From Lacunisphaera sp. (GTDB taxonomy: Bacteria; Verrucomicrobiota; Verrucomicrobiia; Opitutales; Opitutaceae), in NCBI GenBank assembly GCA_029945855.1, contig JAQSDJ010000111.1, positions 1 through 35,271 on the forward strand: 35,271 bases of DNA, written 5' to 3'. Position numbers and translations under genes: made by a program. The notes below the pieces were generated by a model. It did not search any database and was not told where the DNA came from. It saw nothing but the letters and a program-made list of their open reading frames with translations. Shown here in pieces: positions 6,036 through 32,724 of this stretch (position 1 is the first letter of the stretch; each line of letters opens with the position of its first letter).

Positions 6036-8246
6036 ATGCCGACCCCACCACTGCTCCCCATGCTACCCCGCATCCTCCTCCTGCTTTCCCTGCCCCTCCT
6101 GGGCTCCGCCGCCACCCGCGTCGAGCTGGCCTGCGATCGCAGCATCCCCGCCATCGCCTTTTCCGCCAGCGAAATTGAACGGGCGGCGGCGCTGGCGCCT
6201 GACGGTGCGCCGCTCCTGGTTTCTCTCGAAATCGATCCCGCCGGCGGCGGCGACCCCCAGGCCTATCGCATCGAACGCACCGGGGCCGACCGCGTGCGGG
6301 TGGTGGGGCAGGGGGCCCCGGGCGCCATGTACGGCGGACTCGATGTGGCCGAGGCCCTGCGCATCGGCACCACGGCCAGCCTCAAGGCCGGCCCGCGCGC
6401 TCCGCACGTGGCCCAGCGCGGCATCAAGTTCAACATTCCCCTCGATCTCCGCACGCCCAGCTACACCGACTGCTCCGACGCCGCGCAGGCCAACATCCCC
6501 GAGATGTGGGACCGCGAGTTCTGGCGGTCCTACCTCGATGACCTCGCCCGGCACCGCTACAACGTTGTCTCGATTTGGTCGCTCCACCCGTTCCCGTCAC
6601 TGGTCAAGGTGCCCGAGTTTCCCGAGGTGGCGCTCGCCGATGTCTGGCGCACGCGCCTCAAGCTGGAGGACAATTTCTCCTTCGCGGGCACCGACATGGT
6701 GCGCCCCGCCATGCTCGCCGACCACGAGGTCGTGAAGCGCATCAGCATCGACGAGAAAATCGAGTTCTGGCGCTGGGTGATGCAATACGCACAGGAGCGG
6801 GGCATCGCCTTTTACGTATTCACGTGGAACACCTTCACTTTTGGCGCCGAGGGCAAGCATGGCATCACCAGCGACCTCGAAAACCCGATCACCAAGGCAT
6901 ACTTCCGCGCCAGCGTGCGTGAGATGATCAATACTTATCCCCTGCTCGCCGGCTTCGGCATCACCGCGGGCGAGGGTATGCCTCATAAAATGGACTCCAA
7001 GGTGAAGGAGAAGTGGCTCTGGGATACGTACGGCGAGGGGGTCCGGGACGCGCTGAAGACCAACCCGCAGCGGGTCGTGCGTATGATCCACCGGTTCCAT
7101 TGGACGGCCCAGAGCGAGATCATCGATGCGTGGAAGGACTATCCCGGCTTTCCCGCCACCTTCGACTTCAGCTTCAAGTATTCGGTGGCCCACATGTATT
7201 CGATCACCAACCCGCCGTTCATCAAGCCGCTGCTGGATGGCATCGCGCCCGGCCTGCGCACCTGGCTGACCGTGCGTAATGATGACATCTACACCTTCCG
7301 GTGGGGTAATCCCGATTACGCCCGCGATTACGTGGTCAACATGCCCGCCGCGGACAAGTGCGCCGGGTTCTACATGGGACCCGACGGGTACGTCTGGGGT
7401 CGGTCCTTCTTGGAACGGCAGCCGCCCGCCGCCGGACCCCGCCCGCTCGTGATCGAAAAGCAGTGGTACAGCTTCATGCTCTGGGGCCGCCTCGCCTACG
7501 AGCCCACGCTGAGCAACGCCCATTTCGAACGCGTCCTCGCGGCGCGCTTTCCCGGCGTGCCGGCGCCGACCCTCTTCGCGGCCTCCAACGCGGCCTCCGA
7601 GGTCATCCCCACCATCACCAGCTTCTTCTGGGGTGACATCGACCTGAAGTGGTTTCCCGAAGCCTGCCTGAGCAGCCCGCGCAGCAAAGGTTTCTACACG
7701 GTAAAGCATTTCGTGGAGGGGGGCACGATGCCCGGTTCCGGCAATATCGACATTCGCGAGTGGTGTCTGAGCCTGCTGGGCAAAAAGCCCATGCCGGGCA
7801 CGACCCCGCTACAAATCGCGGATCGCCTCCGCGGGCAGGCCCTCGAGGCGGAGCGCCTGATCGCCGAACTCCGCCCGTTCGCCGCCCGCTCCGAGGAACT
7901 CGCCGCCACCCTCGATGACTTCACGTGCTTCGCCCTCCTCGGGCATTACTATGCCGAGAAAATCCGCGGGGCTTGCGCCCTCGCGCTCTATGACTCCACG
8001 TCGGATCCTGCTGAACAGGCCGCCGCCTTGCGGCACCTCGGGTCGGCCCTTGGGTACTGGCAGCGTTACGCCGCGGTGCGCGATGCCCGCTACGGGCCCG
8101 CGCTGTATAATCGTGTCGGTCACGTGGACATTACGGCGCTCACCGGTAAAGTCGCCGCCGACCTCGACCTGGTCCGCGGGTGGAAACCCGGCAGCGTGAA
8201 GTATGACGGTTCCCGCCCTGGCACTGAAAAAGGCTTCCAGCACTGA
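6036..8246 (+). CDS. Exported GH67-like (alpha-glucuronidase-type) protein, paralogue A
   Basis: The protein is 736 residues from the ATG at 6036; an ATG at 6060 is also possible. Both lead into a signal peptide rich in Leu and Pro ending near GSAA. The reading frame stays open upstream to 5799, but that part overlaps GH31 and looks non-coding. A short N-terminal alpha/beta domain ends in GAMYGGLDVAEAL. It is followed by RGIKFNIPLD and a TIM-barrel-like core with HRYNVVSIW, FTWNTF, GFGITAGEGM (Glu313, candidate catalytic residue) and RNDD (Asp416 and Asp417). The C-terminal part is helical with YYAEKIRGACALALY. The plan resembles GH67, but I see no close GH67 signature, so the substrate is unknown. 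Homologues are at 11792, 18579, 20988 and 30480. Confidence 0.7.
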   Translation: MPTPPLLPMLPRILLLLSLPLLGSAATRVELACDRSIPAIAFSASEIERAAALAPDGAPLLVSLEIDPAGGGDPQAYRIERTGADRVRVVGQGAPGAMYGGLDVAEALRIGTTASLKAGPRAPHVAQRGIKFNIPLDLRTPSYTDCSDAAQANIPEMWDREFWRSYLDDLARHRYNVVSIWSLHPFPSLVKVPEFPEVALADVWRTRLKLEDNFSFAGTDMVRPAMLADHEVVKRISIDEKIEFWRWVMQYAQERGIAFYVFTWNTFTFGAEGKHGITSDLENPITKAYFRASVREMINTYPLLAGFGITAGEGMPHKMDSKVKEKWLWDTYGEGVRDALKTNPQRVVRMIHRFHWTAQSEIIDAWKDYPGFPATFDFSFKYSVAHMYSITNPPFIKPLLDGIAPGLRTWLTVRNDDIYTFRWGNPDYARDYVVNMPAADKCAGFYMGPDGYVWGRSFLERQPPAAGPRPLVIEKQWYSFMLWGRLAYEPTLSNAHFERVLAARFPGVPAPTLFAASNAASEVIPTITSFFWGDIDLKWFPEACLSSPRSKGFYTVKHFVEGGTMPGSGNIDIREWCLSLLGKKPMPGTTPLQIADRLRGQALEAERLIAELRPFAARSEELAATLDDFTCFALLGHYYAEKIRGACALALYDSTSDPAEQAAALRHLGSALGYWQRYAAVRDARYGPALYNRVGHVDITALTGKVAADLDLVRGWKPGSVKYDGSRPGTEKGFQH

Positions 8247-8323
8247 GCGGCGCGTCCCGGGCCCGCTGGTCCTGCCCCAGTCAAATTTCCTGAGAAAACC
8301 GTTTCCCTCAAACTTACATTTCT

Positions 8324-9973
8324 ATGATCTGGTCACAGAATTACGCCCCGATCGCGGACAGCATCAGCCTTTCGGCCCTCGTGGCCGCCATTCCCGTCGT
8401 CACGGTGCTGGCTTTGCTGGCATTCTGGCATGTGCGCGCCCACCTCGCGGCCCTGGTCGGTCTGCTGCTGGCGGCCGCCATTGCCGTGGGTGTTTACGGC
8501 ATGCCCGCCCCGATGGCCGCCGCCGCCGCCGGGTACGGTGCGGCGTTCGGCCTGTTCCCCATCGGCTGGATCGTACTCAACGCCCTTTTCATCTACGGCG
8601 TCTCGGTCGAAACCGGGGGCTTCAAGGATTTGCAGAATCGCATGGCGGGCATCTCCGCGGACCGCCGGATTCAGGCCTTGATGATCGCCTTCGCGTTCGG
8701 TGCGTTCATCGAGGGCTTTGCCGGTTTTGGCGCGCCGGTGGCAATCACCGGTGCGCTGATGATCGGGCTGGGCTTCCGGCCGCTCGACGCCGCCGTGCTG
8801 GCGCTGATCGGCAATACCGCCCCGGTGGCCTTCGGCTCCGTCGGCGTCCCGATCGTCATGTTGGCCAAGGTGACGGGGATCGACGAATTGACCTTGAGCG
8901 CCATGGTGGGCCGGCAGCTGGCGCCGTTTGCCTTCCTCGTGCCCTTCTGGCTGGTCGCCGCCCAAGCCGGCTTCAAGGGCATGCGCGGCGTGTGGCCCGC
9001 CTGCTTCGTGTCGGGCGCGGCCTTCGCCGTGGCCCAGTTTTTCGTCAGCAACTACCACGGCCCGCAACTGGTCGGTGCCGCCGGCGGCCTGAGTGCCATG
9101 GGCGCCCTGCTGATCCTGACCCGGTTTTGGCAGCCCAAGGAGATGCAAACCAACCCCGGCCACGTCGAGCTTTCCACGGCCGCCCGCGCCGCGAACACCA
9201 CCGCCAGCACCAATGTGCGGGCGTGGCTGCCCTGGATCCTGCTGACCGTGCTCGTGGCGGGCTCGACGATCCTCCCGCTCAAGAATGCGCTCAACGCCAC
9301 CTTTGCGCCCAAGTTCGCCGTGCCGGGGCTGCATCTGGCGCTGCAAAAGATGCCGCCGGTCGTGACCAAGGCCACGCCTGAAGCCGCGGAGTTCACGTTC
9401 AACCTGCTCTCCGCGACCGGTTCCGCGCTGCTGGTCGCCGGCGTGCTCGCCGGCTTGCTGCTCGGGCTCAAACCGGGCCAGCTCCTCGCCCTCTATTGGC
9501 GGATTGTCAAACGGGTCCGCATCTCCCTCCTGACCATCGCCCTGATGCTCGCGCTGGGCTTCACCACGCGCTACAGCGGCACGGACACCACGATGGGGCT
9601 GGCTTTTGCCAGCACCGGGTTCCTGTTCCCCTTCTTCTCGCCCCTGCTCGGCTGGCTGGGCGTCGCCCTGACGGGCAGCGACGCGTCGTCCAATGTCCTC
9701 TTCGGCAATCTGCAGACGGTCACCGCCCGGCAAATCGGCGTCTCGCCCGTGCTGACGGCCGCCGCCAACAGCGCCGGCGGCGTCATGGGCAAGATGATCG
9801 ATGCCCAGAGCATCGTCGTGGCCAGCGTGGCCACCGGTGGCAAACCCGACAGCCCGGATGTCGGCACCATCCTGCGCGCCGTCTTCTGGCATAGCGTCGC
9901 TCTCGCCACGCTCATGGGCATTTATGTCATGCTGCAGGCTTACGTGCTCCAGTGGATGATCGTCGTGCCCTGA
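8324..9973 (+). CDS. lctP: L-lactate/glycolate permease, LctP family
   Basis: This 549-residue, strongly hydrophobic protein has about 12-14 predicted membrane segments. Family hallmarks include GFAGFGAPVAITGALMIGLGF in the middle and GSDASSNVLFGNLQ followed by NSAGGVMGKMI near the C-terminus. LctP permeases import lactate, and related members carry glycolate, by proton symport. It is the only obvious transporter in the window. Placed directly before hyi and a tartronate-semialdehyde reductase-like gene, it may bring in a short hydroxy or keto acid connected with glycan breakdown. The specific substrate cannot be read from sequence. The gap after paralogue A is 77 bases. Confidence 0.92.
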   Translation: MIWSQNYAPIADSISLSALVAAIPVVTVLALLAFWHVRAHLAALVGLLLAAAIAVGVYGMPAPMAAAAAGYGAAFGLFPIGWIVLNALFIYGVSVETGGFKDLQNRMAGISADRRIQALMIAFAFGAFIEGFAGFGAPVAITGALMIGLGFRPLDAAVLALIGNTAPVAFGSVGVPIVMLAKVTGIDELTLSAMVGRQLAPFAFLVPFWLVAAQAGFKGMRGVWPACFVSGAAFAVAQFFVSNYHGPQLVGAAGGLSAMGALLILTRFWQPKEMQTNPGHVELSTAARAANTTASTNVRAWLPWILLTVLVAGSTILPLKNALNATFAPKFAVPGLHLALQKMPPVVTKATPEAAEFTFNLLSATGSALLVAGVLAGLLLGLKPGQLLALYWRIVKRVRISLLTIALMLALGFTTRYSGTDTTMGLAFASTGFLFPFFSPLLGWLGVALTGSDASSNVLFGNLQTVTARQIGVSPVLTAAANSAGGVMGKMIDAQSIVVASVATGGKPDSPDVGTILRAVFWHSVALATLMGIYVMLQAYVLQWMIVVP

Positions 9974-10031
9974 CCACTATCGATCCGGGCCCGCTGCCGA
10001 CCTCCCCCGCACTCACCGTATTTCTCTTCTT

Positions 10032-10817
10032 ATGCCAACATTCGCCGCCAACCTCACCATGCTCTTCACCGAGGTGCCATTCCTGCAGCGCTTTGCCCTC
10101 GCGCGCCAGGCCGGCTTCGCGTTCGTGGAATATCTTTTCCCCTACGCGCATCCGGCAGACGAGATCAAGAGCCAGCTGCAAGCCCACGGCCTCACGCAGG
10201 TGCTGTTCAATCTGCCCGCGGGCGACTGGGCCGGCGGAGACCGCGGCATCGGTGCCTCGCCGGGTCGGGAAGAGGAATTTCGCGCCGGCGTGGCCAAGGC
10301 CATCGCCTACGCCCGCCCGCTGGGGGTGCCGCGTTTGAACTGCCTCGCCGGCAAACGCGTCGCGGGTCGCACCGACCTGGAGCACCGCGCGGTGCTCGTG
10401 GCCAACGCCCGGTATGCCGCCACGGCGTTGGCCGAGCATGGGCTCGAACTGCTGCTCGAGCCGATCAACCATTTCGACATTCCCGGATTCTATCTCAACC
10501 GCACGGACGAGGCCGCGCGGCTGCTGGATGAGATCGCCTGCCCGAATGTGCGCATCCAATACGATCTCTATCATGCCCAACGCGAGGAGGGTGAACTGAT
10601 CGCCACCTTGCGCCGGCACCTTCCCCACATCGGCCACATCCAGATCGCCGACAATCCCGGCCGGCATCAGCCGGGCACCGGCGAAATCAATTTCCCGTTT
10701 GTTTTCCGGCAGCTCGATGAGATGGGCTACCCGGGATACGTCGGGCTGGAATACGCGCCCACACCCAATACGGCCGGCGGGCTCGGCTGGCTGCGCGACT
10801 ACGGATTCAAGGCCTAG
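10032..10817 (+). CDS. hyi: Hydroxypyruvate isomerase family protein
   Basis: The protein has 261 residues, the usual length for Hyi, and belongs to the xylose-isomerase-like TIM-barrel superfamily. It begins MPTFAANLTMLFTEVPFL as Hyi proteins do. Candidate metal and catalytic residues are Glu143 in LLLEPINHFDIPG, the Asp in IQYDLYHAQ, the His and Asp in GHIQIADNPGRHQPGTGEI, and Glu240 in GYVGLEYAP. Hyi interconverts hydroxypyruvate and tartronate semialdehyde in the cytoplasm, and the next gene encodes the enzyme family that reduces tartronate semialdehyde to glycerate. There is no glyoxylate carboligase gene nearby, so the usual glyoxylate context is missing. Members of this fold also act as sugar or keto-acid isomerases, so another substrate is possible. 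Confidence 0.88.
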   Translation: MPTFAANLTMLFTEVPFLQRFALARQAGFAFVEYLFPYAHPADEIKSQLQAHGLTQVLFNLPAGDWAGGDRGIGASPGREEEFRAGVAKAIAYARPLGVPRLNCLAGKRVAGRTDLEHRAVLVANARYAATALAEHGLELLLEPINHFDIPGFYLNRTDEAARLLDEIACPNVRIQYDLYHAQREEGELIATLRRHLPHIGHIQIADNPGRHQPGTGEINFPFVFRQLDEMGYPGYVGLEYAPTPNTAGGLGWLRDYGFKA

Positions 10818-10868
10818 CGGCGGGCCGGCGGCTGCATGCGGGCAAACCATTTAACCACCAAAATACAA

Positions 10869-11765
10869 ATGAAAATCGGATTCATCGGACTCGGAATCAT
10901 GGGCAAGCCCATGAGCAAAAACCTGCTCAAGGCCGGGCACACGGTCGTCGTCTGCGACGTCAACCGCGGCGCAGTCGAGGAAGTCGTGGCCGCCGGCGCG
11001 CAGTCGGTCGCGACGCCGCGCGACATCGCGGCGCAAGTTGAGCTCGTCATCACCATGCTGCCCAACTCCCCGGAGGTGAGGCAGGTGGTGCTGGGCGCCA
11101 ATGGCATTTGGGAGGGAGCCCAGGCGGGCTTGATCGTTGCCGACATGAGTTCGATCGCGCCGCTGGCGAGCCGCGAGGTCGCGGCCAAGCTGGCGGAGAA
11201 GGGGGTCGAGATGCTCGATGCTCCCGTCAGTGGCGGGCAGCCCAAGGCGATCGACGGCACGCTCTCGGTCATGGTGGGGGGAAAACAGGCAGTGTTCGAC
11301 CGGTGCCTGCCGGTGTTCAAGGCGATGGCGGCGTCGGTGGTGCGCGTGGGCGACATCGGCGCGGGCAACGTGGCCAAGCTAGCCAACCAGGTAGTCGTCG
11401 CCCTCAACATCGCCGCCGTCTCCGAGGCACTGGTTTTGGCGGCGAAGGCCGGCGTGGAGCCGGAACTGGTGTTTCAGGCCATCCGCGGCGGACTCGCCGG
11501 CAGCACCGTCATGGAGGCCAAGGCGCCGCTCATGCTTGACCGCAAGTTCAATCCCGGTTTCCGCATCAACCTGCACATCAAGGACCTCACCAACGCGCTG
11601 GAGACCGGGCATCAGTTTGGCGCGCCGCTGCCGCTGACCGCCGCGGTGATGGAAATCATGCAGGCCTTGAAAATCGACGACATGGGGGACTGCGATCACG
11701 GCGCGCTCGTCCGCTACTTTGAGAAACAGGCGAAGATCGAACTGCAGCGCGCCCCGGCGCGATAA
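10869..11765 (+). CDS. garR: 2-hydroxy-3-oxopropionate (tartronate semialdehyde) reductase, GarR/GlxR type
   Basis: The protein has 298 residues from the ATG at 10869. A start at 10836 would add 11 residues before the Rossmann motif and is less likely. It is a beta-hydroxyacid dehydrogenase: the NAD(P)-binding GLGIMGKPM at residues 7-15, the substrate-binding DAPVSGGQ, and the catalytic Lys170 in GNVAKLANQ are all present. GarR reduces tartronate semialdehyde to D-glycerate in glyoxylate, glucarate and galactarate pathways. With hyi 51 bases upstream it can form a two-step route from hydroxypyruvate to glycerate. The link to uronate or aldarate breakdown would suit the glucuronidase-like genes around it, but this is inference; relatives act on other beta-hydroxyacids. 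Confidence 0.88.
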   Translation: MKIGFIGLGIMGKPMSKNLLKAGHTVVVCDVNRGAVEEVVAAGAQSVATPRDIAAQVELVITMLPNSPEVRQVVLGANGIWEGAQAGLIVADMSSIAPLASREVAAKLAEKGVEMLDAPVSGGQPKAIDGTLSVMVGGKQAVFDRCLPVFKAMAASVVRVGDIGAGNVAKLANQVVVALNIAAVSEALVLAAKAGVEPELVFQAIRGGLAGSTVMEAKAPLMLDRKFNPGFRINLHIKDLTNALETGHQFGAPLPLTAAVMEIMQALKIDDMGDCDHGALVRYFEKQAKIELQRAPAR

Positions 11766-11791
11766 CCGCCGCATTCAGTTTCCTTCCCATC

Positions 11792-13924
11792 ATGAAATCT
11801 CGCCGCCGCCTCGCGCTCGCGCTCCTTCTTTCCGTCGCCCTCACTTCGGCCATCGCCACCCCGGTCGACTACGGCCTCGCGAAGCTGGGTGCCGCCACGG
11901 GGGTTGCGATCAAGCAGCTGCCCGTTCGCGTCGTCAGCAACGATCCCGGCCTGGGCCCGGACGGTTTCACGCTCGCCTGCGTCGGCGACCAGTGGCTCGT
12001 GACCGGCGGCAATGAGCGCGGGGCCATGTACGGGCTGCTCGACCTGGCCGAACAGGTCCGGCAGGGCACCGCCCTGGCCCGAATCGAGCCCAAGACGGAG
12101 CGGGCCCGCTTTGAGTTCCGGACCATCAAGTTCAACCTGCCGTTCGCGGCCTACCGCACCAGTCCGACGATCGAGCAGCACCAGGACACCTGCCGCGATA
12201 TCAAGTATTGGGAGGCGTTCCTCGACATGATGGCGTCGAACCGCTTCAACACCCTCACGCTCTGGAGCAACCATCCGTTCCACTATTTCGTGGTGCCGAA
12301 ATCCTTCCCGGAAGCGCAAAATTTCAGTGACGCTGAGATGGCGGAATGGCGCAAACTGTGGACGCAGTTGTTCGCTCTGGCCAAGGAGCGCGGGATCGAG
12401 ACCTATTTGGTCAACTGGAACACGTTCGTATCGCCGGAATTTTCCCGGGCGCACAATCTCGGGGATTACAACATCACCGGGGCGCATATCGGCGTGGGGA
12501 CGCGAGAGAAGATCGTCGTGGACTACACCCGCGAGTGCGTCCAGCAGACGATCGACGAGTATCCGGACCTGACCGGCTTCGGCATCACCCTGGGCGAGCG
12601 CATGGGCGACCAGACCCCGGCGGAGCGCCGGCAATTCCTCGACGATACCTTTTTTGCCGGCATCGCAGCGGCCAAACGCCCGGTAAAGTTCATCTACCGC
12701 GCGCCGCTCTCGGCGAACACGGGCTCGGGGGGCTCGACCAGCGAGGAGAACGACCGCCTCACCCGCGCCCAGATCGAAGGATTGCGGAACAATCCGAACA
12801 TCATTCTGCCCGTCTACACCGAGTTCAAATACAACTGGTCGCACGGGCACTCGACGCCCAACCTCTTCATCGTCCACGGCGGCAAGCTCTCGGATGCCTA
12901 CTGGAACCCGGCGCCGACGAGTCACCGCGTCGTCTGGACGGTGCGCAACGAGGACTTCTTCGTGCTGCGCTGGGGGGCCCCGGACTTCATCCGCGAGTTC
13001 ATCGCCAACAACGGCGCCCCGCATGTCGGCGGCGTGCTGGTGGGGTCCGAATGCTATATCCCGGCGAAGGACTACATCACCAACACCGGCCGCCACAAGA
13101 CGTGGACCTGGGCGTTCGAGCGGCAATGGCTCTGGTATGCCCTTTGGGGTCGTCTGCTGCACAATCCCGCCACGCCGGACCAGACCTTCGAGCGCCTGCT
13201 GGGCGCGCGCTTCGGCCCCGAGCACGGGCCGGACCTGCTCAAGGCGTGGACCCTGGCGAGCCGGGCGCAGTTGCGCTTCGCCGCGTTCCATCGGGGCACG
13301 TGGGACGGTTCGCTCTACACCGAGGGCTTCACGGGCTGGCTGGACAATTCCCACGATTCCTCGTTTCAGTTTTTCAACATCGAGAACATCATCACCCATC
13401 CGGTGCTCGACACGAAATACGTCAACATCGCCGACTTCGTGAAGGCCGGCGGACAGATCCCGGCCGACAAGGTATCTCCGCTCCAGCTCGCCGCAGAGTT
13501 GGAGCGGGACATGACCGAGGCGCGGCGCCTCGCTGCGGCCGTGCGGGAGCGCGGCAACGTGTCCGCTCCCCTCGCCGGGGAAATGGCCGACATCGATGCC
13601 TGGACCGCCCACGGCCTCTATTTCGCCGCGAAGCTGCGCGGCGGTGTCGCGCTCGCCACCTATCGCCAGAACGGGGACAAGTCCGAGCAAGCCGCCGCGG
13701 TGGCGCACCTGGAGCGGGCGCTCGAGCACTGGCGCGACCTCACCGTGGCTGGCACCAAGTACAATGTGCCGCGCATGCCGCACAACCCGAACGAGCTGTT
13801 CTCCTGGGCGCGGTTTATTCCCAGCGTCGAACGCGATATCGCCATCGCGCGCGGCACGGCCACGGTCGACACGCCCCCGCGGTCGATGCGCGTCGCGGAA
13901 CCGATCAAGCCTGCGACCCCCTGA
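11792..13924 (+). CDS. Exported GH67-like (alpha-glucuronidase-type) protein, paralogue B
   Basis: The protein has 710 residues with a signal peptide (RRRLALALLLSVALTSAIA). Its N-terminal alpha/beta domain is the shortest of the five and ends in GAMYGLLDLAEQV. The core carries FRTIKFNLPF, NRFNTLTLWSNHPF, VNWNTFVSPEF and GFGITLGERM with Glu269. It has RNED at 385-388, where A, C and E have RNDD. The helical C-terminus contains YFAAKLRGGVALATY. B is the most divergent member: it lacks the long SIDEKIEFW segment of A and D. Conservation of the candidate Glu suggests it is active. It lies 26 bases after the garR-like gene and 30 bases before GH2, in what looks like one operon. Confidence 0.7.
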   Translation: MKSRRRLALALLLSVALTSAIATPVDYGLAKLGAATGVAIKQLPVRVVSNDPGLGPDGFTLACVGDQWLVTGGNERGAMYGLLDLAEQVRQGTALARIEPKTERARFEFRTIKFNLPFAAYRTSPTIEQHQDTCRDIKYWEAFLDMMASNRFNTLTLWSNHPFHYFVVPKSFPEAQNFSDAEMAEWRKLWTQLFALAKERGIETYLVNWNTFVSPEFSRAHNLGDYNITGAHIGVGTREKIVVDYTRECVQQTIDEYPDLTGFGITLGERMGDQTPAERRQFLDDTFFAGIAAAKRPVKFIYRAPLSANTGSGGSTSEENDRLTRAQIEGLRNNPNIILPVYTEFKYNWSHGHSTPNLFIVHGGKLSDAYWNPAPTSHRVVWTVRNEDFFVLRWGAPDFIREFIANNGAPHVGGVLVGSECYIPAKDYITNTGRHKTWTWAFERQWLWYALWGRLLHNPATPDQTFERLLGARFGPEHGPDLLKAWTLASRAQLRFAAFHRGTWDGSLYTEGFTGWLDNSHDSSFQFFNIENIITHPVLDTKYVNIADFVKAGGQIPADKVSPLQLAAELERDMTEARRLAAAVRERGNVSAPLAGEMADIDAWTAHGLYFAAKLRGGVALATYRQNGDKSEQAAAVAHLERALEHWRDLTVAGTKYNVPRMPHNPNELFSWARFIPSVERDIAIARGTATVDTPPRSMRVAEPIKPATP

Positions 13925-13954
13925 GCCGCAACCCCCCGAACCATGGGACCGGCA

Positions 13955-16534: not shown

Positions 16535-16554
16535 GCACAAAACGAATCATCCCC

Positions 16555-18396: not shown

Positions 18397-18497
18397 CCTT
18401 CCGCCATGGAAATCCCACCAGCCACCCGTTACTTCCGGCCTTATCCAACAACACAACCTCCCGTCTGTTTAAGCCGCACTGTCACCGAAACCGCCAT

Positions 18498-18545
18498 GTA
18501 GGTCGGGGTTTATCCCCGACATCTCGGGCGTAAAGCCCGACCTAC
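18498..18545. repeat. REP-like palindromic element, copy 1
   Basis: The ends GTAGGTCGGG (18498-18507) and CCCGACCTAC (18536-18545) are inverted repeats. Each half also folds alone: GTCGGGG/CCCCGAC around TTTAT, and TCGGGC/GCCCGA around GTAAA. Both halves recur in opposite orientation at 20886-20942, so it is a true dispersed repeat. It lies in the 182-base gap between GH36 and paralogue C. Confidence 0.75.
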
Positions 18546-18578
18546 CGCAACGGCTGAGAAAATTCCATACGAAAAAAT

Positions 18579-20801: not shown

Positions 20802-20885
20802 TCCATGAAAGTCTGCGCTCGGCCCATGGCATCTCCAAATTCCCGAAGCTCACGGAATCCAGTGATGTTGTCGGCCATCTTTGTC

Positions 20886-20942
20886 GGTCGGGCTTTACGC
20901 CCGGCATGCTGGGCAACCCGTCGGGGATAAACCCCGACCTAC
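20886..20942. repeat. REP-like palindromic element, copy 2 (inverted relative to copy 1)
   Basis: Positions 20920-20942 are the exact reverse complement of the 23 bases at 18498-18520. Positions 20886-20903 are the exact reverse complement of 18525-18542. The spacer between the halves is 16 bases here and 4 in copy 1. The rest of the gap between paralogues C and D (20802-20987) shows no gene that I can recognise. Confidence 0.75.
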
Positions 20943-20987
20943 AGTCAGATCGCGTCACTCTATTATGCGAAACTCAGTAAGCCACTC

Positions 20988-24598: not shown

Positions 24599-24729
24599 AG
24601 CCCCCCGCCAGATGTTCTCGAAGCCATGGGTTCCACGGTACCCCCCGGGGGAGTCCGACATACTTCGATGATCCGTCCTGAATCCAGTTTCCCAACCACC
24701 AACCAACAGCCGCAACAGCCGCACAAACC

Positions 24730-26460
24730 ATGAAGCCGAAGTGCATTCTATTGTCACTCGGCCTTCTCCTGGCCGCCACCCAGGCCCAGGCTGGCCCGCT
24801 CCCCGCCAGCAGCGGCACCACCGTCCCCGATGGTCGGGGCACGGTCGCTTCCCCCAAGACGGCAGGCGCCGGGCCGATCGCCCAGCCTTGGCGAACGACC
24901 GATGACATCATCCCCGGGTGGGACTGGTCGCTGCCCCCGGACGTCCGCGCCTCGCCGCGGGGTTGGCTGGCCTATGGAAGCGACGAGGATCTCACCACGC
25001 CGTTCCCACCCGGCAACCGGGTGATCGCCCTGCATCTGCGCTGGCGTGACCTCGAACCGCGCGACGGGGAATTCGACTTCACGGCGGCGCGCGCCCGCAT
25101 CGCGCGGATCGCCGCCGCCGGCCTCGGCGTCAATCTGACCATTTTGGGCGCGGTGTGGCGGTTCGACAAAACGGACCGGCAGGGCAACGTCACCGCACCC
25201 TCGAACGGCAGCGATCCCCGGGAATCCGCGCCCCGTTGGCTCGCTGACCTCGGCGTGCCGCTCATTCAGGAAAAGGCCATCACCAACAACGTCTCGCCCT
25301 TCCAGATCACCAATTGCGACATCTTCCATCCCCTTTACCACGAGCGCTACCTGCGTTTCATCCGCGCCCTCGGCCAGTCGGGCCTTCCCGCGCTCGCGGC
25401 CGTCAAGGTCGCCTACCTCTGCGACAAGTCGGCCACCAACGGCGAAGAGGGGTGGACCGCGGCCGACCAGCCGACCAGCGGCGAGGGCTGGCAGCGGTAC
25501 CGCGAGCGCCTCGCGGCCTGGGCCGAGGCGTTCGGTGCCAAAAGCCACGTCCTGATGACTGTCTCCAGCAAGCCGCAATATCTCGAGGAGTGCTACCTCC
25601 TCGGGATTGGCCAGCGCAATGGCTTCGTCGAGATGTACCTGGGGCATGTGGACAACGCCGCGATGGGCCAATCGGTCGATGCGGAAGGGTATCTGCTGAC
25701 GGATGAAAACTGTCCGCCCCTGGCGCGAGGTTATGCGTGGGGCGACGAGAACGAGGAATATTCCCGGGGCTGGACCGCCCGCTTCGGCCCCTACGAGACC
25801 TTCGGCCACCGCTATCGGGAATCCATGTTGCGCGCCCTGCAGATGCGCCGGAACTACCTGCGCACCGACCGCTCCGATCTCGATCCCGCGCTGTTGCATT
25901 ACGTCTGCCTCGAGCTCGGACGCACCGTGGAGGACACCCCGGATGCCTGGTGCTACCTGCGCGAAACGCCCACCCACGAACACCCGCAAGGGGTGCGCAA
26001 TTTTGAGCGCTGGCTGCAGCAACGCGACCGCGACGGCGCACGCACCGTGGCCGTCGATCGGTATGACATCGAAAAGCAGAATTCGCATTCGCACGACTTC
26101 ACGGCCCGCCGGACGGATGTCGCCCGCGGCCAGACCAAGATCGGTTTTGCCCTCGATGATCGCTTTCTGCCCGGCGGGCCGCATCGCGTAGCCTTCAAAG
26201 TCACCTACCGTGATGAAGGCGACGCCGTCTGGCGGCTCGTTTACGATGCCGCCCGGCCGGATTCGCCTCCCGCCCGGGTGCGGTGCACCGGCACCGGCGA
26301 GATCCGCACCGCCACGTTCTTCCGAGACGATGTCCGTTTTGGGGCCACCGGCCTTGATTTCGACTTCGCCATCGAATCCGAACGCGGTGATGCCGTGATC
26401 AAGTTTGTCCGCGTCGTCCGCCTGCAACACGCGGGCGGGGGAGGGGACCGTCCGCAATGA
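24730..26460 (+). CDS. Exported TIM-barrel hydrolase-like protein
   Basis: The protein has 576 residues with a signal peptide (KCILLSLGLLLAATQAQA). The segment ALHLRWRDLEPRDGEFDF resembles the first barrel strands of GH42/GH5-like enzymes (W-x-x-L-E-P-x-x-G-x-[FY]-x-[FW]). Glu residues in TNGEEGW and WGDENEEYSRGW are possible catalytic residues, but I cannot assign them. A beta-rich C-terminal region (GQTKIGFALDDRFLPGGPHRVAFKVTY) resembles a carbohydrate-binding or accessory domain. The first 40 residues closely match those of the DUF4832 protein at 32725, and both genes lie downstream of a GH67-like paralogue (D and E). No family can be named with confidence. Galactosidase-like activity is one possibility. 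Confidence 0.6.
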   Translation: MKPKCILLSLGLLLAATQAQAGPLPASSGTTVPDGRGTVASPKTAGAGPIAQPWRTTDDIIPGWDWSLPPDVRASPRGWLAYGSDEDLTTPFPPGNRVIALHLRWRDLEPRDGEFDFTAARARIARIAAAGLGVNLTILGAVWRFDKTDRQGNVTAPSNGSDPRESAPRWLADLGVPLIQEKAITNNVSPFQITNCDIFHPLYHERYLRFIRALGQSGLPALAAVKVAYLCDKSATNGEEGWTAADQPTSGEGWQRYRERLAAWAEAFGAKSHVLMTVSSKPQYLEECYLLGIGQRNGFVEMYLGHVDNAAMGQSVDAEGYLLTDENCPPLARGYAWGDENEEYSRGWTARFGPYETFGHRYRESMLRALQMRRNYLRTDRSDLDPALLHYVCLELGRTVEDTPDAWCYLRETPTHEHPQGVRNFERWLQQRDRDGARTVAVDRYDIEKQNSHSHDFTARRTDVARGQTKIGFALDDRFLPGGPHRVAFKVTYRDEGDAVWRLVYDAARPDSPPARVRCTGTGEIRTATFFRDDVRFGATGLDFDFAIESERGDAVIKFVRVVRLQHAGGGGDRPQ

Positions 26461-26631
26461 ACTCCGTCGCCAGCCGCCCGCATGCCGTCCTGCCGCCCAA
26501 TCTCCCGCCCCCGCGGGCCGGCAACGCCAGGCCGCGAGCGCCGGCCTTCGCCATGGCGCCTTCGGCTGAAAGCCTTCCGCCCCTGAGATCGTCCCACCAT
26601 CACCGATTCTGCTTTGAAAATCATTGATGCC
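26461..26631. other. Intergenic gap before sulfatase
   Basis: The gap of 171 bases is GC-rich with no open frame that I recognise. An in-frame TTG at 26614 would extend the sulfatase by six residues, but the ATG at 26632 gives the better signal peptide. Confidence 0.4.
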
Positions 26632-28197
26632 ATGAAGCGATGGCTCCTGAACCTCACGCTGCTGACCGCGGGCTGCGGCGGCACCTACGCCGCGGGCACC
26701 GCGCGCCCGAACATCCTCTTTGCGATCGCCGACGACTGGGGCCTGCACGCGGGCGTCTACGGCACGCGCTGGGTGAAAACGCCCGCCTTCGACCGCATCG
26801 CCCGTGAAGGCTTGCTCTTCCAGAACGCCTACACGCCGATGGCGAAATGCGCGCCCTCGCGGGCGATCGTGCTCACCGGACGCCATCTCTGGCAAAACGA
26901 GGAAGCCGGCAACCACCTGGCCTATTTTCCCCAGAAATTCAAAAGCTGGCCGGAAGTGCTGATGGAGAAAGGCTGGCACATGGGCATGACCGGCAAAGGG
27001 TGGGGCCCGGGTATTGCCAACGACGCTTCCGGGAAACCGCGGCTCATCACGGGCAAATCATTCAATCAACGCAAGACCGCGACGCCCGCCCAGGCGATGA
27101 GCAACACGGACTACGCCGGGAACTTCCAGGACTTCCTCGACGCCGCGCCGAAGGATGCCCCCTGGTGCTTCTGGTACGGCGCCCACGAGCCGCACCGCGA
27201 ATACGAATACCAGGTGGGGGTGAACAAGGGCGGCAAGCAGCTCGCGGACATCGACCGCGTGCCGGCGTATTGGCCCGATAATGCGACTGTGCGCCATGAC
27301 ATGCTCGATTACGCCTTCGAGGTCGAATATGCGGACCGCCACCTCGGCCGCATGATGGCCGAGTTGGAGCGACGCGGCCTGCTCGAGAACACGATCATCA
27401 TCGTGACCAGTGACCACGGGATGCCTTTCCCGCGCGTGAAGGGTTACGCCTACCATGACTCCAACCACGTCCCGCTCGCCATCCGCTGGCCGCGCGGCAT
27501 GAAAGCCCCTGGTCGCGCCATCGAGGACTTTGTGGATTTCACGGATATCGCCCCCACGATTCTGGACTACGCCGGCATTGCCGCGAAGGACAGCGGCATG
27601 ATGCCCCACACCGGGAAAAGCTGGCGGCCAATTATCGATAGCACGAAGGGTGGCCGCGTCTTGCCCGAGCGAGACCACGTGCTCATCGGCAAGGAACGCA
27701 ATGACGTCGGTCGTCCGCACAACTGGGGTTATCCCATTCGCGGCATCGTCACGGCGGACCATGTCTATCTCCACAACTACGAGCCAACCCGCTGGCCGGC
27801 CGGGAATCCAGAAACCGGCTATCTCGACACCGATGGCAGCCCCACCAAGTCGCTCATCCTCGATCTCGGCCGCGCCAACCGGGCCGATCGCTACTGGCAG
27901 CTCAACTTCGGGATGCGCCCCGCCGACGAACTGTATGATCTTCGCACCGACCGCGACTGCGTGCGCAACCTCGCCCCCGACTCGGCGCACGCCAAGTCGA
28001 TGGCGGCCCTGCGTCAACGCATGGAGACGATGCTCAGGGCCCAGGGGGACCCGCGCATGGAGGGGTGCGGTGAAATCTTCGACCGGTATAAGCCCACCAA
28101 GGGCGATGGTCTCTTCGAACAGGTCATGCGGGGGGAAAAGGTCGAAACCGGCTGGGTCAACCCGACCGATTTCGAGCCGCAGCCGATCAAGCCGTGA
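26632..28197 (+). CDS. Exported S1-family sulfatase (formylglycine type)
   Basis: The protein has 521 residues. It starts with a hydrophobic export signal ([15 protein letters not shown]); Cys15 after TAG could make it a lipoprotein, though the lipobox is weak. [13 protein letters not shown] gives the metal ligands Asp34 and Asp35. Cys73 in [13 protein letters not shown] is the C-x-P-S-R residue that is converted to formylglycine. [15 protein letters not shown] supplies the second metal-binding Asp-His pair. Such enzymes remove sulfate esters from carbohydrates outside the cytoplasm, so the glycan attacked is probably sulfated. Cys-type activation needs a maturation enzyme, which is not in this window. 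The linkage attacked cannot be told from sequence. Confidence 0.93.
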
Positions 28198-28228
28198 AAA
28201 CCTTGCCCGCCTTTTGCCCCCTGATTGC

Positions 28229-28381
28229 ATGCAGCTGCCGAGGACAGCCAATGAACCCACGGCGCCAATCACGGCCGCTTTCCCTGGCCGGATCATCTGG
28301 CGACACAATGGCAAGGTGGATGGCGCCGAGCTTCGCGCCAAGGTCCTCGAAATCATGGGGCGGTATTATGTGCCGAAGTGA
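28229..28381 (+). pseudogene. Redoxin/TlpA-like C-terminal fragment
   Basis: A 50-codon open frame starts at the ATG at 28229 and ends 3 bases before the DUF1080 gene. Its second half (PGRIIWRHNGKVDGAELR, then KVLEIMGRYYVPK) resembles the final strand and helix of redoxin-domain proteins, where a GRIVWRHxG strand is followed by an ELR helix. The thioredoxin core and CxxC motif are absent. I read it as the remnant of a deleted gene, or possibly a small expressed peptide. The match is by eye and short. Confidence 0.4.
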
Positions 28382-28384
28382 ACG

Positions 28385-29194
28385 ATGAACATGAACCAGA
28401 CATTGCTCGCCCTGGGACTGCTGGGCGCCATGGCCCGCGTGGGGCTTGCGGCAGAGAGCGGCTGGGTTTCCCTCTTTAACGGGAAGGATCTTGCCGGCTG
28501 GACCGTCCGCTGCCCGCCGGAGGCCCAGGGCAAGATCTTCTGGCGGGCGGACGCCGGCACGATCCTGTGCGATTCGCTCGGCCGCCCGGACCACCCCTAT
28601 GTCTGGCTCGTCAGCGACCAGGAATATGGCGATTTTGAGCTCCGGCTGCAGTTCCAGGCTTACGCCGATTCGCCCGGCAACAGCGGGATACAGTTCCGCA
28701 GCCGTTTCGATGCGGCCGACCAGGGGGGCTGGATGAACGGGCCGCAGGTGGACATTCATCCGCCGGCGAAGCAACAGTGGCGCACCGGGCTGATTTACGA
28801 CGAGACGCGCGGTGAGCAGCGCTGGGTCTGCCCCAGCCTGCCGGACTGGAAAATTGGCGCGGAATTTGGGCGGGTCGGCCGGGTGTTCAAGTATGCCGGC
28901 GACGGTGACGGCTGGAACGACCTGACGATCATCGCCCGGGGAACGCACGTCAAAACCGTCGTCAACGGCGTGGTCTGTGCGGAGTGGGACGGCACGGGCG
29001 TTTTGGACAATGCGGCACACCGCGCCAGGAACGTGGGACGCACCGGTCATTTTGCATTGCAGCTGCACGCGAAGGATCAGTTGCGCATCCGGTTCAAGGA
29101 TGTTTTTGTACGGGAACTGGACGCCGCGAGTACCCCGGAGTCCCGGCCTTCCGCCCCGCGTTCTCGACCGCCACCAAGTTCGGTCAACAAGTGA
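28385..29194 (+). CDS. Exported DUF1080 (3-keto-disaccharide hydrolase fold) protein
   Basis: The protein has 269 residues with a signal peptide (NQTLLALGLLGAMARVGLAA); a second ATG at 28391 is possible. The family opening motif SLFNGKDLAGWTV is at 29-41 and the NSGIQFRSR motif starts at residue 99. QVDIHPP and HFALQLHAKDQLRIRFKDVFV follow, as usual in this jelly-roll, LamG-like domain. DUF1080 proteins are widespread in Verrucomicrobiota and Planctomycetota, and some hydrolyse 3-keto-glycosides. Next to a Tat-exported oxidoreductase, a role in cleaving oxidised sugar intermediates is plausible, but a purely carbohydrate-binding role is not excluded. Confidence 0.85.
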   Translation: MNMNQTLLALGLLGAMARVGLAAESGWVSLFNGKDLAGWTVRCPPEAQGKIFWRADAGTILCDSLGRPDHPYVWLVSDQEYGDFELRLQFQAYADSPGNSGIQFRSRFDAADQGGWMNGPQVDIHPPAKQQWRTGLIYDETRGEQRWVCPSLPDWKIGAEFGRVGRVFKYAGDGDGWNDLTIIARGTHVKTVVNGVVCAEWDGTGVLDNAAHRARNVGRTGHFALQLHAKDQLRIRFKDVFVRELDAASTPESRPSAPRSRPPPSSVNK

Positions 29195-29229
29195 ATCAAA
29201 TTTCCAACCAGCCAACCCAGAAGACCACC

Positions 29230-30321
29230 ATGAAAACATCAGAGAACACTGCCACCAAGACCTTGAGTCGCCGGGAATTCCTCGGCACCACGCTGGCCGC
29301 CACCATGGCGCTGGCTGCCAGTTCCGCCGCCCCGACCCGTGCGCAGGAATCGGCGGGCGCGGCGGCCGCCCCGACGGGTGGCCGGCGCCCCTTGCCCTTC
29401 AATCCGCGCACCGCCGCCGCCATGCCCATGCGCAATCTCGGCCGGACCGGTTTCCGCGTGGGCATCTTCAGCCTCGGCTGCCAGGCCGCCATCGAGATCA
29501 AGGGGAATGAGAAGTTATCGGTCGAAATCATGAACCGGGCGCTGGATCTGGGGGTGAATTATTTCGACACCAGCAATGTCTACGGCGGCGGTGTGAGCGA
29601 GGAGCACGTCGGCCTGGTGGTGCGCGACCGGCGGAGTGAAGTGTTTATCGCCTCGAAAACCGGGAAGCGCGACTACGACGGCGCCATGGCGCACCTGGAC
29701 ACCAGCTTCAAGCGGATGCACACCGACCATCTTGATCTCTGGCAGATTCACAACCTGCAGAAGATGGCGGATGTGGACCGGTTGCTGGCGCCCGACGGGG
29801 CGTTGAAGGCCTTTCAGAAGGCCAAGTCCGAGGGGCTGGTCAGTTTCATCGGCGTGACCGGTCATTTCGAGCCGAAGGTGCTGCGCGAGATGATCCAGCG
29901 CGCCGAGCTGGACTGCATCCTGATGGCCGTGAACGCGGCGGACCGGCATTACCTCAGTTTCATCGAGCACCTGCTGCCGACCGCCTTGGAGAAGCAAATG
30001 GGCATCATCGGCATGAAAGTCGCCACCCGCGGGCGCATGCTGTCCACCTGGAAGCCGGATCCGCTGGAGCAGCAGCCGGAGCGCATGCGCACGGCCAAGC
30101 CGGGCACGATCACCATGGCCGAGTCGCTCGCCTACAATTTCACCCTGCCGCTCAGCACCAACATCGTGGGGGTGGACAACATCGCGCAGCTGGAGGAAGA
30201 CGTGAAATGCGCGGCGAACTTTGTCCCGCTGAGCGTGGAGCAGATGCTGGCCTTGGAGGAACGCACCCTGCCCATCGTCCGCCAGGGACTCTATTTCCGG
30301 CGCTGGGATCTGGGCGCCTAA
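29230..30321 (+). CDS. Tat-exported aldo/keto reductase
   Basis: The protein has 363 residues from the ATG at 29230. The upstream open frame from 28984 overlaps DUF1080 and is rejected. A twin-arginine signal (SRREFLG, Arg14 and Arg15) with a hydrophobic stretch and an APTRAQ end indicates folded export, which suits an enzyme carrying NADP. The aldo/keto reductase tetrad is complete: Asp113 and Tyr118 in YFDTSNVYGGG, Lys143 in IASKTGK and His174 in WQIHNLQ. Such enzymes reduce aldehydes or ketones of sugars. A periplasmic place beside DUF1080 suggests work on keto-sugar intermediates, which is inference. It lies 35 bases after DUF1080. Confidence 0.9.
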   Translation: MKTSENTATKTLSRREFLGTTLAATMALAASSAAPTRAQESAGAAAAPTGGRRPLPFNPRTAAAMPMRNLGRTGFRVGIFSLGCQAAIEIKGNEKLSVEIMNRALDLGVNYFDTSNVYGGGVSEEHVGLVVRDRRSEVFIASKTGKRDYDGAMAHLDTSFKRMHTDHLDLWQIHNLQKMADVDRLLAPDGALKAFQKAKSEGLVSFIGVTGHFEPKVLREMIQRAELDCILMAVNAADRHYLSFIEHLLPTALEKQMGIIGMKVATRGRMLSTWKPDPLEQQPERMRTAKPGTITMAESLAYNFTLPLSTNIVGVDNIAQLEEDVKCAANFVPLSVEQMLALEERTLPIVRQGLYFRRWDLGA

Positions 30322-30342
30322 GCCCGGGAACAGTCAAAGGAT

Positions 30343-30362
30343 CCCCGGGGCGAGCGCCGGGG
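30343..30362. terminator. Possible hairpin after the aldo/keto reductase gene
   Basis: CCCCGG at 30343-30348 can pair with CCGGGG at 30357-30362 around an eight-base loop. There is no T-tract, so it is at best a weak or factor-dependent stop. The rest of the 158-base gap to paralogue E shows nothing further. Confidence 0.2.
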
Positions 30363-30479
30363 CATTTGCACCAAGCCATGCCAGCCAACCTCATGGCCGC
30401 CATGGGTAGTGGACTGCAAAGGCAGCGCACCGCTGAAAGCCCCTTCAAAAAACGTCCCTCAAAAATTCACCCCCCATCT

Positions 30480-32699
30480 ATGAAAACCATGTGCTTAAGC
30501 CGCTGCGCCACGACCGGCTGGATGCTCTCCGCGCTCCTTGGTTTTTTCACCCCTTCATCGGCGGAGACCATCCGGCTGTACTTTGATCCGGCCACCCCGC
30601 AGATCGCCTTTGCCGTCGGCGACATCAAGGCCGCCTTGGAAAAGCGCCAGCACACGGTCCAGACCCACGACCTTACCACCCTGGCCCAAGCCGGTGCCGG
30701 CAAGAAGGTGGTCCTCGCGCTCGCCACCGACAATACCGTCGCGTCGTTGCTTGCAGCCCAAGGCGGCAAACCCGCTGCCGGCTTGGGCGAACAGGCCTAC
30801 GCCCTCCGCACCACGACCGTACCGGACTTGAGTCACTGGGTGCTGGGGGGGGACGCGAATGGCGCGATGTATGGCGGATTGCAATTGGCGGAGAACATTC
30901 AGTTCCACGACATCGGCCGCGCCTACGATGAAGAGGATGCACCTTTTCTTAAAAACCGGGGCATCAAATTCAACCTTCCTTTGGACAAGGACTCGCCGAC
31001 CTATTATTATGGCTTCAAGGGCACGGCCAACAAGCTAGCCGTCAAGGATGTCTGGGACCTCGGTTTCTGGCAGACCTGGTTCGACGAGATGGCCCGGCAT
31101 CGCTACAACGTGTTGTCGCTTTGGTCGCCGCACCCATTCACTTCGATGGTCAACATGGAGGCCGAGTATCCCGGCATTGCGATCCAAGGGGTGACCGGTT
31201 TCGATGCGGCGGGCCGGAGCGTCAAAGTGAACGATTTGTCGATCGACGAGAAAATCGCCTATTGGCGCGCCGTGATGAAGTATGGCCGCGAGCGGGGCTT
31301 CGACATCACTATCTGCAATTGGAACGTTTTCCTCTCCACCGCCGAGGGGAAGCACGGCCTCACTCACGCCACCGACAACGAAAAAACCAGGGAATATCTC
31401 CGGAAATCCGTGATCAAACTCTTCGAGACTTACCCTGAGCTGAAGGGTTTTGGCATCACGGTGGGAGAGCGAATGGGAACACTCGACCAGAACCAAAGGG
31501 AAGAATGGGCGTGGGATGCTTTCGGCCAGGGCGTGATGCAGTACGCGCAAGAGAATCCCCACCGCGACATCGTCTTCATCCATCGCCAGCACGATGGGAA
31601 CATCGACCATATCCTGAAGCACTTCGCGCAGCTCAACGAGCTGCCCAACGTGCGGATGGATCTCTCCTGCAAATATTCCGAGGCCCACGCCCATTCCACG
31701 GTCACCCCGTCGCGCTGGCACCGGACGGGGATGGAACAGGGGCTGGCCAAACACGGCATCATGTCGTGGCTGACCGTGCGGAACGACGACTTCTATTTTC
31801 TTCACTGGGCGGAGCCGCAGTTTGTGCGCGACTACATCAGCGGCTTTCCGCCGGTCGACAAGTATGTGACCGGCTTCTACATCGGAGCGGATGGCTGGGT
31901 GTTCGCCAAGGAGTTCACCAGCAAGAATACCTACTATAAGGAGCGGGATGCGCTGAGCATCCAGCGCACCTGGTATATGCAAAAGCTGTGGGGGCGGATT
32001 TCATACAACCCCAAGATCTCCGATGACTTTTTCAGGCAACACCTCGCGGCCAGGTTTCCCGAGGTGGCGACCGACCAGCTCTTTGAGGCTTGGAGCAGCG
32101 CTTCCGGCGCCATCCGGCGCGCCAACGAACAAGTCACCGGCAAGTGGCAGTTCGACGCGGACTTTTGGCCCGAGATGTGGACCGGCGACATGTGGCAGGG
32201 CAGGGAAGGCCGCCACTTCTCCATGGATGACACCAAGGAAGCGACCCCGTTTGCGGGTTCCAAACTCGCCTCTCTGCGGGAAACCGCGGAGGGAAAAGCC
32301 GGCGAAAAGGTTCCCGCCTGGGAAAATATCGAGACGATCGAGATGCTATCGACCAAGGCCCTGGCGATCCTCGCAACCTTGCAGCCCGGGGAGAATGTCG
32401 AGTTGCAACTCACCCTGAAGGATCTGACGGCCCAGGCCCATCTGGGACAATATAACGCCGGGAAGTTTCGGGCCGTCATCTACGATCTGCAGGGAGAAAA
32501 GGAAAAGGCGACGCAGGCGATGGGCCAAGCGTATGTAGCTTGGCGCCGATACACCGACCTCATGGATACGCTCTATATCGGCGCGAAGATGCAGCGGAGC
32601 CGTGACTTCACCGACTGGCACGCTTACGATAAAAATGTTCTGCAGGACTACCTCGACCTCGGCGGGCTCGCCGAGCCCGCCTGGCGCCAAAACCCATAA
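30480..32699 (+). CDS. Exported GH67-like (alpha-glucuronidase-type) protein, paralogue E
   Basis: The protein has 739 residues from the ATG at 30480, with a signal peptide ending near FFTPSSA. The frame is open upstream to 30207, but that part overlaps the aldo/keto reductase gene. Residues about 27-110 nearly match paralogue D, with no gaps over roughly 240 bases (30561-30808 against 21069-21310). The core has RGIKFNLPLDKDSP, HRYNVLSLWSPHPFTSM, CNWNVFLSTAEGKHGLT, GFGITVGERM with Glu330, CKYSEAHAHST and RNDD at 434-437. The C-terminal motif reads YNAGKFRAVIY, so the RG of the others is RA. A run of eight G lies at 30845-30852. The DUF4832 gene begins 25 bases after the stop. Confidence 0.72.
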   Translation: MKTMCLSRCATTGWMLSALLGFFTPSSAETIRLYFDPATPQIAFAVGDIKAALEKRQHTVQTHDLTTLAQAGAGKKVVLALATDNTVASLLAAQGGKPAAGLGEQAYALRTTTVPDLSHWVLGGDANGAMYGGLQLAENIQFHDIGRAYDEEDAPFLKNRGIKFNLPLDKDSPTYYYGFKGTANKLAVKDVWDLGFWQTWFDEMARHRYNVLSLWSPHPFTSMVNMEAEYPGIAIQGVTGFDAAGRSVKVNDLSIDEKIAYWRAVMKYGRERGFDITICNWNVFLSTAEGKHGLTHATDNEKTREYLRKSVIKLFETYPELKGFGITVGERMGTLDQNQREEWAWDAFGQGVMQYAQENPHRDIVFIHRQHDGNIDHILKHFAQLNELPNVRMDLSCKYSEAHAHSTVTPSRWHRTGMEQGLAKHGIMSWLTVRNDDFYFLHWAEPQFVRDYISGFPPVDKYVTGFYIGADGWVFAKEFTSKNTYYKERDALSIQRTWYMQKLWGRISYNPKISDDFFRQHLAARFPEVATDQLFEAWSSASGAIRRANEQVTGKWQFDADFWPEMWTGDMWQGREGRHFSMDDTKEATPFAGSKLASLRETAEGKAGEKVPAWENIETIEMLSTKALAILATLQPGENVELQLTLKDLTAQAHLGQYNAGKFRAVIYDLQGEKEKATQAMGQAYVAWRRYTDLMDTLYIGAKMQRSRDFTDWHAYDKNVLQDYLDLGGLAEPAWRQNP

Positions 32700-32724
32700 C
32701 CATGAACCAACCGCAGGACAAACC

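Follow-up and report, generated by a model that had tools for sequence, protein, structure and literature searches.

The five paralogues A to E of the window (the whole 35,271-nucleotide stretch of Lacunisphaera sp. DNA analysed here) have GH138, the rhamnogalacturonan-II (RG-II) alpha-galacturonidase family, and not GH67 as their closest characterised relative. On our best reading of the alignments and models, the clade to which they belong is a variant of GH138 whose active site is altered, and forms its sister group. It seems reasonably probable that A-E are exported exo-acting glycoside hydrolases in which another carboxylate replaces the GH138 residue E361 and which act on different end sugars of one glycan. 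This explanation is built on homology, the predicted fold of A and B, the absence of E361, the conservation of other residues and the old divergence of the five.

All five open reading frames were found within 27 kb on the plus strand (Table 1), as proposed by an earlier reading of the sequence alone, and they can be aligned over their full length, where 76 columns have the same residue in 5/5. Identity to A was 30% for B, 39% for C and 36% for both D and E. Pairwise identities were observed to range from 25 to 49%, where D and E form the closest pair (92-row alignment). The shared GAMYG motif was recovered in all five (residues 96-100 of A), and the signal peptides described in that reading agree with a hydrophobic N-terminal segment in 5/5, which is weakest in E (best 12-residue hydropathy 1.46); export was judged by this N-terminal hydropathy. 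In the Pfam scan of A-E no family was found above its cut-off and there is no Pfam model for the clade.

Table 1. Features of the window and active-site codons of paralogue A.
Feature	Position	Strand	Remarks
Response-regulator-like protein	195-854	-	by eye
Two-component sensor with regulator propeller	873-4103	-	possible controller of the locus
GH31	4270-5892	+	nearest solved structures are GH31 alpha-galactosidases (8j50, E 2e-180); upstream of A
Paralogue A	6036-8246	+	736 aa; GH138-related clade, A/D/D type
A, E313 codon	6972-6974	+	directly follows barrel strand 4; aligned to GH138 E294
A, A385 codon	7188-7190	+	just after strand 6; GH138 E361 nucleophile position, here Ala
A, R414-N415-D416-D417 codons	7275-7286	+	end of strand 7; D416 is the proposed replacement carboxylate
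LctP, L-lactate/glycolate permease family	8324-9973	+	only match found in own genome
Hydroxypyruvate/2-oxo-tetronate isomerase family (Hyi)	10032-10817	+	over TIGR03234 and NF043033 cut-offs
2-hydroxy-3-oxopropionate (tartronate semialdehyde) reductase (GlxR)	10836-11765	+	
Paralogue B	11792-13924	+	710 aa; most divergent; S/E/E type: S350, E387 in R385-N-E-D
GH2, beta-mannosidase-like	13943-16534	+	5n6u, E 4e-51
GH36-like	16516-18396	+	nearest solved are alpha-galactosidases (1zy9, E 4e-25); Melibiase 53 bits vs 27; start 16639 in our gene caller
Paralogue C	18579-20801	+	740 aa
Paralogue D	20988-23198	+	736 aa; RNDS replaces RNDD
DUF362 protein	23195-24598	+	
Protein with GH42-like similarity below threshold only	24730-26460	+	no PDB sequence match
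Sulfatase	26614-28197	+	nearest solved S1_8A (9bb9, E 1.5e-33); CAPSR stretch
3-keto-disaccharide hydrolase domain protein	28385-29194	+	PF06439
Aldo/keto reductase	29227-30321	+	start set at MKTSEN Met; twin-arginine-like SRREFLG (by eye)
Paralogue E	30480-32699	+	739 aa; closest to D among A-E
DUF4832 protein	32602-34752	+	start 32725 in our gene caller

The relationship to GH138, for which BT0997, BPa0997 (PDB 6hze, 6hzf and 6hzg) and NCBIfam NF049878 served as references, was found with sequence and with structure. All five match NF049878 (alpha-D-galacturonidase) with E-values of 8e-20 to 2e-26 and 70-92 bits, the best stretch falling for the most part into the model's first half. The equivalog cut-off of 1300 bits is missed by 5/5, but this strict cut-off weighs little because seven same-family GH138 genes, which have the GES motif, fall short of it as well (998-1057 bits). 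A profile of A-E searched against PDB sequences had GH138 BPa0997 as its best match (E 8e-43, positions 17-699 of 743); three BPa0997 sequences were matched and the sole other match up to E 0.1 was a hexosaminidase (0.0057). A 69-row profile gave E 2.8e-48 for GH138 and E 0.0027 for GH67, and hhalign of the clade family with GH138 gave a probability of 100 (E 3.4e-39, 594 columns). AlphaFold models were obtained for A (pLDDT 93.1, pTM 0.92) and B (pLDDT 88.9, pTM 0.90). In Foldseek, ranks 1-5 were all GH138 for A (E 8.8e-33) and for B (E 9.8e-29), followed in each case by GH67 (9.8e-15 and 4.7e-13 respectively). With VIA-align, the A model gave Z scores of 29.8, 29.1 and 28.4 for three GH138 entries while the best non-GH138 entry had 20.0.

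The sequence-only reading had likened the five to GH67, whose signatures it did not find evident. Both points hold: the plan of an alpha/beta N-terminal domain, a TIM barrel and a helical C-terminal domain is present in the predicted structures of A and B, where GH67 is second to GH138, and the Pfam GH67 domain was above its gathering score in 0/5. The barrel and helical domain are thus predicted for A and B, for which structure prediction and structural search were run, and are expected for C, D and E by homology alone. GH67N was observed in 3/5 at E 0.03-0.11, with 13-15 bits against a cut-off of 24.3. None of the Pfam domains of GH20, GH84 and GH115 passed its cut-off in A-E, and GH20b was seen for B at E 0.065 only. 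GH67 was rejected as the nearest parent, as its Foldseek E-value for A is 18 orders of magnitude weaker than that of GH138.

Residues of GH138 were mapped onto A with a HMMER alignment and two MAFFT alignments, in which E294 corresponds to E313, R332 to R353 and E361 to A385. We take E294 to be the acid/base and E361 the nucleophile of GH138, and R332 and R521 are presumably its GalA-specificity arginines; these roles reportedly come from the key GH138 paper, that of Labourel in 2019. The position of E361 was fixed by the PDB name 'E361S' and by the Ser/Glu difference between that chain and 6hzf. The barrel strands of the A model comprise residues 127-133, 177-182, 258-263, 304-310, 349-353, 376-381, 409-415 and 442-448, so that R353 is predicted to end strand 5 and D450 to follow strand 8.

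Conservation was counted among 172 candidates (at least 560 aa and at least 50 bits), which were reduced to 153 at 95% identity: 139 clade members and 14 outgroup sequences. The outgroup holds the seven same-family GH138 (L097-L103), three of the L104-L106 type, L112 and one each from L058, L065 and L077. The window's own copies (L083-L089) and shorter pieces, among them the two GH138 pieces of its own genome, were left out of the 172. The contig scan used the patterns GAMYG and R[GT][IM]K[FL]N and those columns are therefore biased, while columns 313-542 were not used.

Column 313 was found to be E in 137 and D in two of the 139 members; all of A-E have E, and one of the two members with Asp is the L080 relative of D. 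Both R353 and K381 were observed in 139/139. At position 385, which is that of E361, the clade has A (113), S (24) or G (2) and never Glu (0/139), whereas Glu is present in 14/14 of the outgroup, seven of which are GH138. Position 414 is R in 138 members (one gap), positions 416 and 450 are each D in 114 and E in 24 (one gap), and positions 536 and 542 are D and E respectively, each in 137 (two gaps). The residues at 385/416/450 combine as A/D/D in 112, S/E/E in 24, G/D/D in two and A with gaps in one. As for R521, the GNRQ stretch of GH138 is missing in the clade and D536...E542 are found there instead. Since E361 is missing throughout the clade, GH138 activity cannot simply be transferred. 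The earlier proposal of an undescribed glycosidase family therefore does not stand with respect to fold and homology, where the GH138 parent is clear, but it does stand functionally. All five come close to matching one characterised CAZy family, GH138, though its nucleophile is absent. The clade is characterised nowhere in the titles and abstract openings of the papers listed in literature searches on GH138 and on Verrucomicrobiota/Opitutaceae glycosidases.

In the tree, the clade was found to be monophyletic with support of 1.0 (139 members against 14 outgroup sequences), and the 24 members with S385/E416/E450, which include B, form their own clade, also with support of 1.0. Both the loss of E361 and the change between D and E amount to about one evolutionary event each and not to 139; the column counts therefore measure conservation and not repetition. 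The nearest tree neighbours of the five are all in other genomes: L002 for both A and B, L092 (a same-family genome) for C, L080 for D and L059 for E. The L002 genes are 82% identical to A and 78% identical to B, with a sulfatase between them. D, E and the copies of L080 and L059 make up a clade of four with support of 1.0; for C, the support for joining this group is only 0.056. Given these neighbours, A-E are old subfamilies brought together in one locus, and recent tandem duplication was rejected. The G+C content is 59-60% over C, D and E (18001-24000 and 30001-33000) compared with 63-67% in the other 3-kb segments (65-67% around A and B), which fits and hints at a separate arrival of C-E but proves nothing.

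Five copies in one locus had been called unusual, and this was upheld within our sample. Among 115 non-duplicate loci, excluding the window, 101 have one copy and 14 have two (at least 350 bits) and none has more. From 252 same-family genomes, the 21 scored in full were picked for their many candidates and had at most two copies on any contig; the highest genome totals among them were six in G004 (four contigs) and five in both G129 (four contigs) and G006 (three contigs). Clusters of greater size may have escaped notice, since the sampled loci extend over about 22 kb at most and the drafts are fragmented. A scan of one-genome-per-species contigs yielded 290 stretches encoding relatives. By record title, the best 80 of these belong to Verrucomicrobiota, Planctomycetota, Acidobacteriota, Lentisphaerota, Sumerlaeota, Hydrogenedentota, Armatimonadota and Bacteroidota. 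Genes in the sampled loci were called with our own codon-usage script.

Several other GH138-like sequences were observed in these searches. Two partial reading frames at contig edges of the own genome match NF049878, L171 at 2-1354 (C186) and L172 at 8041-9414 (C279). They cover model positions 82-448 and 449-875 with 580 and 458 bits, and the first has the GES motif; both probably derive from a single GH138-like gene that the assembly has split. At L058 14464-17271, L065 12165-14924, L067 4681-6873 and L077 12266-14923, weakly similar proteins (93-106 bits) of 731-936 aa adjoin a clade member or are one gene away from it. Those of L058, L065 and L077 keep Glu at the E361 position, and that of L067 shares the KYWAEH motif with L065, to whose outgroup row it is 95.3% identical, and was dropped from the alignment. 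They are possible partner enzymes. In addition, L104, L105 and L106 represent another type, a further unassigned branch of GH138-like proteins (737-888 aa), which carry PGES and KHNDET motifs and score 183-208 bits with NF049878. A Dyadobacter locus (L079 3-14330) encodes SusD, three GHL6-type proteins (one of them Pfam-scanned), LctP, an isomerase-fold protein, a 2-hydroxyacid dehydrogenase and one clade member.

The interleaving of A-E with GH31, GH2, GH36-like and sulfatase genes was confirmed by Pfam matches above cut-off. By their nearest solved relatives, these neighbours suggest a galactose-containing, possibly sulfated glycan as the target, and the hint from the locus is of an alpha-galactose-bearing heteropolysaccharide and not of RG-II. 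The CAPSR stretch fits what we take to be the sulfatase motif. The sulfatase alone says little, since it is one of 25 sulfatase matches in the genome. Sulfatases make up 41 of 415 genes within two of a clade gene compared with 19 of 422 genes four or more away, and a sulfatase lies within three genes of a clade gene in 28/115 loci; the link to the clade is moderate, and these counts take related loci and sulfatase arrays at face value. The neighbourhood is not conserved, which counts against our explanation: among the genes called in the 115 other loci, neither the GH2 nor the GH36-like gene of the window had a homologue. With five old subfamilies present, a specialised set for different linkages of one glycan, as had been proposed, is plausible.

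In the explanation that we prefer, the GH138 fold would be kept up to about its residue 715, together with the acid/base Glu (E313 of A) and one substrate Arg (R353 of A). With the strand-6 nucleophile E361 gone, a different carboxylate would act as nucleophile or base. The best candidate, which probably replaces E361, is D/E416 of the R-N-[DE]-D stretch that ends strand 7; D/E450, which follows strand 8, is close by. Residue 416 is preferred over 417 because the latter is Ser in four of 138 members, including D (and E in one). What speaks against a clean relocation is that the alignment of strand 7 with GH138 is uncertain: GH138 has a conserved LEP Glu near this place, which HMMER puts opposite D417 and hhalign opposite Y419, so that the strand-7 acid may be ancestral. 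A-E would each take a different terminal sugar off a single complex polysaccharide that contains galactose and is possibly sulfated, working together with the GH31 alpha-galactosidase, the GH2, the GH36-like enzyme and the sulfatase. Hydrolysis, the substitute for E361, a retaining or inverting mechanism, exo action and the substrate of A-E are all points that we infer. A wider proposal, towards which we lean less readily, is that A-E represent a separate widespread glycoside hydrolase family within the GH138 superfamily, with the second carboxylate on strand 7 (or 8) and not on strand 6, active sites of two or more kinds (A/D/D and S/E/E) and, in this one locus, five sub-specificities.

An acid/base that is kept and a nucleophile that is missing imply another carboxylate, inversion or a dead enzyme. 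Inversion is possible but rather doubtful, and it overlaps with our explanation as a sub-case: the same clade would work in the manner of GH67, whose mechanism is inverting, with E313 as the acid and a strand-7 acid activating water. The loss of a dedicated nucleophile fits such a switch, as do the place of GH67 as next in Foldseek for A and B and the weak GH67N and 69-row profile similarities, but the GH67 Pfam domain is below threshold in all five. A loss of catalysis, leaving pseudoenzymes or sugar-binding proteins, would agree with the missing carboxylate at the nucleophile position in 139/139. We regard it as very improbable, since E313, R353, K381, R414, the acids at 416 and 450, D536 and E542 are kept in 137-139 of 139, gaps aside, which argues against a dead site, and a dead site would not explain conserved residues that span relatives from several phyla. 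It is unlikely that A-E are divergent GH138 alpha-galacturonidases of the same substrate class, retaining, with a nucleophile supplied from a neighbouring position. The homology and fold are clear and the acid/base and R332 are kept, and an excerpt of one study has BT0997 cleaving alpha-1,2-GalA (PMC7939467). However, E361 is absent throughout and R521 is replaced, A-E score 70-92 bits with NF049878 where the seven same-family GH138 genes reach 998-1057, and the own genome has separate GH138-like pieces, the first with the GES motif.

LctP, Hyi and GlxR form a block between A and B (8324-11765) and look like a separate hydroxy-acid module. Were they instead a clue to the substrate, the enzymes would act on a glycosylated acid and set free a small hydroxy acid such as glycerate, lactate or glycolate. 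Apart from the position of the block, this would be in line with the Dyadobacter locus, where the dehydrogenase, isomerase-fold and LctP genes are two to four genes from the clade copy, with L010, where Hyi-GlxR is two to three genes from a clade gene, and with L020, where LctP is two genes away. However, LctP is not enriched near clade genes (1/415 within two genes compared with 1/422 four or more away) and the block also occurs without them: in G004 (L166), LctP, Hyi and GlxR follow one another in the same order, and the 19.9 kb read there contains no clade gene. The window is the one case in the 252 same-family genomes of LctP on a contig with a listed clade gene, where at most four candidates were scored per genome and the counts are lower bounds; in G245 LctP lies 42 kb from a 113-bit GH138-like match. 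The block was therefore demoted as a substrate clue, and the release of a hydroxy acid is given little credence.

The distinction between the clade and GH138 matters because similarity-based annotation would presumably call clade genes GH138 and would thereby read the use of RG-II pectin into genomes. An excerpt of an Opitutaceae genome note puts GH138 under type I rhamnogalacturonan (PMC12613999), for a gene that may or may not belong to the clade. If the missing nucleophile is real, transfer of GH138 function is unsafe and the clade would be a clean case in which to test how glycosidases make up for a lost catalytic residue.

Among known systems, GH20, GH84 and GH115 likewise have an N-terminal domain and a barrel, but they are lower in the structure lists and share 7-14% identity with the A and B models. 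The GH67 alpha-glucuronidases (1mqq and 1gqi) have the same domain order and TIM barrel as these models, share 11-13% identity with them and are the second family in Foldseek. GH138 shares 16-20% identity in the structural alignments. We take it to have a four-domain plan with a C-terminal domain after about residue 716. Residues 23-714 of 6hze_B align with residues 27-718 of A, leaving 18 residues of A, and by this alignment the last GH138 domain appears to be without a counterpart in A. The aligned range of 6hzf_A runs to 890 with 634 residues aligned, and 6hzg, a shorter chain, has a like fold with Z 29.8 over 625 residues and an rmsd of 3.3. GH138 has 893 residues and A-E (710-740) are about 150-180 residues shorter. 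The N-terminal alpha/beta domain, the barrel, the helical domain and the equivalents of E294 and R332 are shared between GH138 and the clade, whereas the E361 nucleophile and R521 belong to GH138 and the extra R-N-[DE]-D and strand-8 acid belong to the clade.
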